Source of the DNA: a virus
Strand: one strand, 5' to 3'
Length of the DNA: 64,000 nt
IMG/VR virus record: IMGVR_UViG_3300032236_001631
Coordinates: 1 to 64,000 of that record
Made by a program: the position numbers and the translations under genes
Part shown: positions 3,155 through 8,714 of the stretch, piece after piece
Position numbering within the stretch: the stretch's first letter is position 1
Layout: each line of letters begins with the position of its first letter
The notes under the pieces: generated by a model
Told to the model about the DNA's origin: nothing
The model's database searches: none
What the model saw: the letters and a program-made list of their open reading frames with translations, nothing else

Positions 3155-3588
3155 GCTCTTTTATAACCAGTTTTTTTTATAATTAAATTTAACTTTGCAA
3201 GAGCTAGTTTTGATTCTTTACACCAATTCTGACTGATTTCATCACTCATAATATCAGCCAAAGTAATAGCTTCATTTAAAAGATTTCTTGTTTCATTCAA
3301 TTCAATCTCTAAATCTTGAGCAAATACAACTTCATCATCCCATGTAATATTTGTTCTATTAAAAAAAGCATCTGTTCTAGGAGTTTTGTTATGAATCATA
3401 TCCATAGCAACCTTATTATAATGCTCCTTCTCTTCTTCTGTTAAATTAGGTCTATTGGTCATATTCTTTTGTTCAAGCATAGTGTTTGTTTCATCTTTAT
3501 TGACTAATCCATATTTTACCAAATCATCAACCCATTCGTTAGCCAATGGCTTAATTAGTTTATTAAAATCTTCTGTATTCAGAAACAT
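3151..3588 (-). CDS. PRTDA-motif phage protein, larger
   Basis: A 145-residue protein. It has an N-terminal helical part (residues 1-65), then KTPRTDAFFNRTNITWDDEV and FAQDLEIELNETRNLL, the same paired motif as in 1727-2032, then a helical C-terminus. The shared central block with different flanks suggests a mobile small domain joined to different partners. Its stop TGA is inside the -35 box of the next gene. The start at 3588 lies in a decayed promoter-like sequence, 8 nt after the upstream stop. Confidence 0.7.
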   Translation of the reverse strand: MFLNTEDFNKLIKPLANEWVDDLVKYGLVNKDETNTMLEQKNMTNRPNLTEEEKEHYNKVAMDMIHNKTPRTDAFFNRTNITWDDEVVFAQDLEIELNETRNLLNEAITLADIMSDEISQNWCKESKLALAKLNLIIKKTGYKRA

Positions 3589-7258: not shown

Positions 7259-7909
7259 TTACCAACCCTCCTCTTTCTTTCTTGGTGCTGTTACCCATAC
7301 ACCAATGTTTCCTACCCACTGTAAAGCACCATCTACAAAACCAAGTTCATACTTCTCGCCTTTAGGTAATTGTGACCATTTTTTATCAATAAGATCAAAT
7401 GCTTCTTGATATTTCTTTTCACAAAAAAACGAATATAATTTCTTTTTAATTCTAGCTGGAGCAACAAAGAATTTCCTAGTACTAAAACCTTGGACAACTG
7501 GATTAGGAACATCTGAATAACTTCCCCAACAAGTATCAAAGTCACGACCAGAACCAGAGTATCCTCCATTTCTTTCGTATGCCATATATTGTCTAAGAGT
7601 CTTCCAAATCATATAGGCTTCCTCTCCCCCAAAACCATACTGACCAACTCCCCATGCGGCATTAGGAGAACCAAGATCTTTGAAATATACTTTTCTAATG
7701 AGAGCTTCAATGTCTTTATTGTCATTGAAGTGATCATAGTTCTCATGCTTGAGCATCTCAGTCTGCTTATCAGCATAGCATTCGTCCAGTGCCATAGTGA
7801 TTTGACCACTACGCATACGCATGAATACTTCCAATGCTCTTTCGATTACAGGAAGATGTCTCTCGTCAAATGTAACAGTGACTTTCTTATGTTCTTTTTT
7901 CTTAGGCAT
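7259..7909 (-). CDS. hypothetical protein following a structured leader
   Basis: A 216-residue protein. It opens with a Lys-rich segment, then a helical region (RHLPVIERALEVFMRMRSGQ) typical of a phage family I have seen without assigned function, then a Gly/Trp/Tyr-rich middle (WGVGQYGFGGEEAYMIWKTL). Its ATG is 16 nt downstream of the cloverleaf RNA element at 7926-8038, and no Shine-Dalgarno site is visible. Expression could therefore depend on that structure. Confidence 0.7.
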   Translation of the reverse strand: MPKKKEHKKVTVTFDERHLPVIERALEVFMRMRSGQITMALDECYADKQTEMLKHENYDHFNDNKDIEALIRKVYFKDLGSPNAAWGVGQYGFGGEEAYMIWKTLRQYMAYERNGGYSGSGRDFDTCWGSYSDVPNPVVQGFSTRKFFVAPARIKKKLYSFFCEKKYQEAFDLIDKKWSQLPKGEKYELGFVDGALQWVGNIGVWVTAPRKKEEGW

Positions 7910-7925
7910 GTTTTTAAAAGTTGAT

Positions 7926-8038
7926 GACTAGGAAATACTTTGGTGGTACTTCGGACAGGCTACACGTTCATCGTATACTATGCTTCGCTATCACCTGTTG
8001 CGGAAGTTCTTTAGCTTATAAGAACTCGCACCCTAGTC
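7926..8038 (-). ncRNA. four-way-junction structured RNA element
   Basis: On the minus strand, ends GACTAGG and CCTAGTC (8032-8038 with 7926-7932) form a 7-bp closing stem. Inside, three arms follow almost without unpaired bases: 8030-7999 (TGCG/CGCA plus AGTTCTT/AAGAACT), 7998-7955 (ACAGG/CCTGT with internal pairs), then 7951-7933 (AAGTAC/GTATTT, one G-U pair that works only in minus-strand RNA). This is a cloverleaf like tRNA, but there is no T-loop sequence and no plausible anticodon arm. It lies between two genes of one operon. Confidence 0.65.
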
Positions 8039-8045
8039 AAATTGT

Positions 8046-8678: not shown

Positions 8679-8714
8679 TTTTTATATACTATATCATTTA
8701 AAAGTTTCTGTCAA
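8679..8714 (-). promoter_or_regulatory. early-type promoter, non-repeat spacer
   Basis: TTGACA (8709-8714), 17-bp spacer, TAGTAT (8686-8691). Predicted leader about 2 nt before the ATG at 8677. It would drive the nine-gene unit down to 5252. The -35 box lies in the end of the HAD gene. Confidence 0.75.

Follow-up and report, generated by a model that had tools for sequence, protein, structure and literature searches.

The locus and its surroundings

The window, i.e. the whole stretch of 64,000 nt that was analysed (positions 1 to 64,000 of IMG/VR record IMGVR_UViG_3300032236_001631), covers most of a 74.8-kb record of an uncultured virus. Its clamp loader, portal, major head and baseplate wedge proteins matched phage families, which we take to be those of the T4-like myoviruses. 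The source of the window is a freshwater T4-like phage. On the minus strand about 136 noncoding bases separate an ORF of 78 aa from the ORF at 7259-7909 (Table 1), and neither flanking gene gave a family in Pfam or PHROGs. These bases hold a structured RNA, the end of which had been placed 16 nt upstream of the ATG at 7909, between co-oriented genes; both positions were borne out.

The nearest upstream promoter-like site in the operon containing the RNA lies at 8714 and, judged by its pattern, is the probable start of this operon. Another promoter-like sequence, TTGACT...TATAAG within the RNA (8040), was rejected: it is accounted for by helix P1 and is not retained in subtype B (see below). 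Between 288 and 10665 the minus strand of the window also carries about 15 near-identical strong promoter sites of the family TTGACACCTCCTCCTAAAGCATATAGAAT, with an ATG just ~6-12 nt past the -10 box. Most early genes behind these promoters look almost leaderless.

Table 1. Features of the RNA locus and versions of the P3 hairpin
Feature	Position	Strand	Remarks
Upstream ORF, 78 aa	8049..8282	(-)	RNA begins directly 3' of its stop codon
Downstream ORF, 216 aa	7259..7909	(-)	relatives elsewhere without the RNA in front
Promoter-like site TTGACAGAAACTTTTAAATGATATAGTAT	8686..8714	(-)	pattern match only
Whole four-way-junction RNA with short conserved flanks	7923..8042	(-)	covariance model 138 bits, E 2.4e-33 (own sequence included in the model)
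P1 5' strand UGACUAGG	8032..8039	(-)	pairs with 7925-7932
P1 3' strand CCUAGUCA	7925..7932	(-)	pairs with 8032-8039
P2 arm	7999..8030	(-)	pairs 8030-8028/8001-7999 and 8026-8020/8011-8005
P3 arm	7955..7998	(-)	7998-7993/7960-7955, then 7988-7986/7966-7964, then 7982-7980/7971-7969
P3 apical-loop palindrome GUAUAC	7973..7978	(-)	proposed kissing-loop dimer site
P4 hairpin	7933..7951	(-)	7951-7946/7938-7933, 6 bp, 7-nt loop
P3 haplotype, GUAUAC version			CAUA-GUAUAC-GAUG
P3 haplotypes, GUGCAC version			CACA-GUGCAC-AGUG; CCCA-GUGCAC-AGGG
P3 haplotypes, CGGCCG version			CAUU-CGGCCG-AGUG; CACU-CGGCCG-GGUG; CAUUC-CGGCCG-GGUG
P3 haplotype, GCGCGC version			CACA-GCGCGC-AGUG

Fold and class of the RNA

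Refolding of the minus strand of 7926-8038 gave a minimum free energy of -32.6 kcal/mol (z = -3.30, 0/200 shuffles as good), and the plus strand was less exceptional (z = -2.55, 2/200 shuffles). This upheld the compact four-way junction of four stems that the initial annotation had read from the minus strand at this place. The stems, which form a cloverleaf shape, measure 8 bp (P1), 3+7 bp (P2), 6+3+3 bp (P3) and 6 bp (P4), and the only clearly free bases at the junction are those of J3/4 (CCG, 7954-7952). The P2 arm consists of a 3-bp base, UGC/GCA here and CGC/GCG in other members, an internal loop, a stem of 5-7 bp and a loop in which GC and AA are conserved. The P3 arm, with GCG/CGU inside an invariant double internal loop (GAUA/GUA and AAG/AA), is the most conserved part of the RNA, its invariance being in part search selection, as the patterns used to collect the members prescribe a large part of it.

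No Rfam 15 family was found on the element at the gathering cut-off, whether in subtype A, subtype B or contig L137, and permissive searches returned only unrelated families with scores far under the cut-off. The covariance-model search thus agreed with the earlier view of a structured RNA of no recognised class. A tRNA was excluded with ARAGORN, which reported 0 tRNA genes in the window, and the Rfam tRNA model did not match the element. Since a CCA end, a T-loop and an anticodon arm are also missing, the suggestion of a tRNA mimic gained no support; that of a processed RNA remains likely. Among the Rfam models no known ribozyme class matched in sequence or structure, and a rough comparison by eye with ribozyme motifs suggested no fit either. 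The GOLLD and ROOL covariance models matched neither the element, nor the subtype B region, nor L137. A description of the RNA was not found in the literature searched, which comprised few subscription papers and no bioRxiv preprints.

Homologues and covariation

Searching related virus records at the DNA level revealed a 98% copy in record G006 and an 81% copy in G001; by DNA matches of this type the RNA was located elsewhere in two records that have relatives of the downstream gene. A pattern of the conserved arm yielded 19 contigs. A looser one added L137, which is full length (115 bits, E 6e-27), and two contigs with the P3 core only, L136 (32 bits) and L141 (23 bits). The model matched 20 records, with exactly one copy in each. 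The RNA family extends over about two dozen uncultured phage contigs, one copy per genome; identical sequences occur in several contigs, so that the independent phages are fewer than the contigs. Cultured phages and plasmids contained no real match to the RNA, and the sole matches of the subtype B region there were to tRNA-Met itself. In bacterial and archaeal genomes 90 pattern matches were obtained, none with the structure or the core; 67 of the 90 were scored with the model (maximum 14.1 bits) and the remainder judged by sequence only. A degenerate scan in which the GCG/CGU helix was left free gave 116 stretches, and among the 80 listed there were no new members or core variants. Model searches near relatives of the other type-A downstream genes and of the terminase-like gene (see below) produced no further members and no diverged cores.

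Covariation was analysed in 14 distinct sequences, using the structure without P4. Standard pairs occupied 99.2% of the pair cells, and the covariation score was 0.264 against 0.153 +/- 0.013 after shuffling, a value that none of 500 shuffles reached; as the alignment was fitted to the model, these figures lean towards the model. When partners were slid by one to three columns, pairing fell to 27-39%. Absence of covariation in homologues had been named in the initial annotation as an argument against the RNA; instead, 10 pairs were altered on both sides, with double changes in every helix but the invariant GCG/CGU. In P2 the covarying pairs are 13-45, 20-36 and 21-35. P1 is replaced by another pairing sequence in G001/L010 (GCUGGG/CCCAGC in G001 for GACUAGG/CCUAGUC), and in the P3 of L032 ACAAG/CUUGU takes the place of ACAGG/CCUGU. 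P4 occurs in two forms, a 6-7-bp hairpin in subtype A and, in subtype B, one that is longer and capped by a GAAA tetraloop; its third pair varies (G-U, A-U, U-G), and 78 of the 79 pairs of the main stem are standard (12 sequences, two hairpin types).

Across five type-A loci identity amounts to 93.7-99.1% for the RNA, 67-85% for the upstream gene and 75-85% for the downstream gene. On these identities, conservation sits on the RNA and not on its neighbourhood.

Genomic contexts

Subtype A is located between protein genes, directly 3' of a stop codon. From the core to an ATG that lacks a Shine-Dalgarno sequence the distance is 81-83 nt in seven of the eight type-A loci, and an A/U-rich flank is kept in these seven despite differing genes. 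No consistent downstream gene family or pathway emerged: three unrelated genes follow the RNA across the type-A loci, and none does in subtype B. Relatives of the type-A downstream genes without the RNA are numerous; relatives of the gene at 7259-7909 were present in six other contigs with no such RNA in front. Together these contexts speak against the riboswitch-like leader of 7259-7909 that had been considered, and the simple form of the leader hypothesis was abandoned on the homologue search with this gene. RNA and gene have a U-run and a separate promoter between them in G001. Neither a switchable Shine-Dalgarno sequence nor a switchable terminator was seen.

Subtype B occurs mostly in tRNA arrays and, where tRNA-Met is present, 2 to ~110 nt past it. 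Behind it lies a conserved noncoding sequence of ~430 nt with no protein gene, which mostly closes with a terminator-like hairpin and which contains a twister-like motif scoring 25.8-32.4 bits in the subtype B records (cut-off 67 bits), with the conserved letters in place. This noncoding stretch looks like an undescribed ornate RNA. An example of ~400-430 nt is L030:5726-6130 (+), and others are found in L015, L016, L024, L028 and L032; the motif in L030 (5951-6027) has 25.8 bits, below the cut-off. Type-A phages likewise have twister-like motifs, at a distance from their four-way-junction RNA, in L150 (G001:200923-200992), L151 (G013:29167-29230) and at G018:38590-38687. The stretch in G013 shares the upstream motif GATCTTTGATArTACATTTT with subtype B, and the four-way junction of this record is 9 kb away and not part of the stretch.

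Several further elements were observed in these regions. In L024 the four-way junction and the long noncoding RNA are separated by an insertion of ~100 nt (1025-1130, +), bounded by ATTACTG/CAGTAAT, that seems to be a further structured RNA of small size. L015, L016, L019 and L024 have, upstream of their subtype B RNA, a conserved noncoding stretch of ~160 nt (cggcaaa-ccctctc ... ggacgcttgaggtttttaggacaaa), which precedes tRNA-Met or takes its place. A tmRNA (69-115 bits) adjoins the tRNA arrays at L015:6818-7268, L030:4166-4616, L020:756-1206, L014:6710-7160, L019:10965-11402 and L137:1-412. The subtype B contig L016 has a group I intron at 3301-3525 (-) with 77.7 bits.

In L136 and L141 the P3 core is accompanied by other helices, P2 is absent and the site is the gap after a terminase-like gene. 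A true relationship of these two is argued for because two hairpin types recur there though the other helices differ. Relatives with a 98-99% identical terminase-like protein have no P3 core in the same gap. The terminase-like and portal-like genes of L141 gave no family in PHROGs, and both names come from the look of the sequence only. Close relatives have different inserts at this same site, and iteron-like repeats (GAACTCAGGAACTCAGGAA, GAAACCTGAAACCTGAAA) are found in the gap in L136, L141, L269 and L300. The gap after the terminase-like gene is a hot spot where short elements come and go. In G020 the RNA sits in a tRNA array, and this record's copy of a gene that elsewhere follows the RNA has its own promoter and no RNA. 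Because contexts change and presence or absence differs at matching sites, the RNA is seen to be gained, lost and moved as a unit; presence or absence at matching sites shows that it is passed between phages as such.

A palindrome in the P3 loop

Seven haplotypes of the P3 hairpin were found (Table 1), all of them with a palindrome of 6 nt at the centre, of which there are four versions (GUAUAC, GUGCAC, CGGCCG and GCGCGC). A self-complementary apical-loop hexamer is thus kept through the changes among the haplotypes. The outer pair of the hexamer could prolong the hairpin; the inner four letters (UAUA, UGCA, GGCC, CGCG) have no possibility of mutual pairing within one loop. Assuming independent origin of the four versions and equal base frequencies, the chance of four palindromes is ~1.5e-5 for the inner four letters and 6e-8 for whole hexamers. 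The palindrome is flanked by A..A or A..G in the GUAUAC, GUGCAC and GCGCGC versions and by a closing pair in the CGGCCG versions. The hexamer duplex is weak for GUAUAC, the version in the window (-4.0 kcal/mol), and ranges from -7.9 to -10.9 kcal/mol for the others, ViennaRNA being a program without a kissing-loop model. Because four different hexamers in one loop are all palindromic, the P3 loop suggests pairing between two copies of the RNA. The P2 loop was considered as a second palindrome and rejected: AGCU and UGCA fit and CGCA in L017 does not.

Interpretation

The explanation that we prefer, with somewhat more confidence than doubt, is that of a new phage noncoding RNA of ~115 nt that is transferred as a unit, forms a putative homodimer through a P3 kissing loop, acts in trans and has a fixed partner for P3. 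The RNA would be made inside longer phage transcripts, which here would start at the promoter-like site at 8714, and it folds into the almost gap-free four-way junction that the covariation supports. Two copies would probably join via the palindromic tip of P3, giving a kissing-loop homodimer, while the invariant double internal loop would be shown to one fixed partner, possibly a protein, the ribosome or a small molecule. Most likely the RNA would be freed from its transcript and then act alone; action in trans is proposed because place and neighbouring genes change while the sequence hardly does. Four palindromes in one loop point to dimerisation, and an invariant core of ~20 letters points to one fixed partner. 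To our knowledge, functional RNA homodimers are rare in nature. Against this explanation it weighs that type A keeps its flank and its spacing to the ATG, which a purely trans-acting RNA does not need, and that the window's own GUAUAC duplex is weak. A wider proposal, put forward tentatively and with more doubt than confidence, is a new class of small trans-acting phage RNAs that form a symmetric homodimer, are exchanged as a cassette between unrelated phages and serve in larger phages as the 5' module of a twister-processed long tRNA-island RNA.

Foremost among the alternatives, though unlikely, is a self-cleaving ribozyme or processing element that cuts beside P1 or in the core and separates genes or frees the long RNA of subtype B. 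In its favour are the small size and mobility of the RNA, its perfect four-way junction, the invariance of its internal loops and, in subtype B, a position 5' of a noncoding RNA that holds a twister-like motif. However, none of the Rfam ribozyme models matched, L136 and L141 retain the P3 core and miss P2, and no conserved unpaired candidate for a cleavage site is obvious.

Next comes a cis-acting leader of the following gene, by riboswitch-like control or by Shine-Dalgarno-free ribosome recruitment. The core-to-ATG distance and the A/U-rich flank kept in seven of the eight type-A loci, though the genes differ, speak in its favour; it is nevertheless doubtful, as no protein gene follows the subtype B RNA, a U-run and a separate promoter intervene in G001, relatives of all these genes function without the RNA and an alternative fold hiding the start site was not found.

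An improbable alternative is a decoy or mimic for a host RNA-binding protein or an anti-phage factor, the palindrome being no dimer site. It accommodates the invariant P3 core, the single copy and the frequent location among the phage tRNAs and tmRNA of tRNA arrays, but leaves the palindromy of all four hexamers unexplained. That these are chance hairpins in an A/T-rich spacer and the RNA functionless is very improbable: a single minimum free energy fold is weak evidence and the plus strand folds well too, yet the covariation and a conservation far above that of the flanking genes oppose it.

Comparison with known RNAs

The proposed homodimer-forming RNA resembles the hairpin and twister-sister ribozymes in its compact four-way junction with conserved internal loops in the arms; it differs in that their covariance models do not match and its conserved letters are unlike theirs. 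With the pRNA of Phi29 it would share being a structured phage RNA that oligomerises via loops, whereas the pRNA has another fold and uses two complementary, non-palindromic loops (PMC7357161), and its Rfam model gave no match here.

The dimer initiation site of HIV-1 has a GUGCAC apical loop (PMC7357161). The likeness lies in a six-nucleotide apical-loop palindrome, which in the GUGCAC version is identical and has a purine on each side. In contrast, the origin of the phage RNA is unrelated, GUAUAC, CGGCCG and GCGCGC occur as well, the surrounding structure is a four-way junction and the dimer is proposed from the letters of the loop.

GOLLD and ROOL are ornate RNAs of phages and prophages near tRNA islands, and one GOLLD is located downstream of a Met-tRNA (PMC12286853). 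Like the present RNA they are phage noncoding RNAs that often adjoin phage tRNAs, as subtype B does past tRNA-Met, and a homo-oligomer is probable for both, here on account of the palindromic P3 loop. They differ in being hundreds of nucleotides long, whereas the present RNA consists of ~115 nt with a single four-way junction, and its type A stands alone between protein genes. The landscape of phage tRNA islands in which GOLLD and ROOL occur here yields a compact RNA, the size of which would permit gel assays, chemical probing and the solving of its structure.
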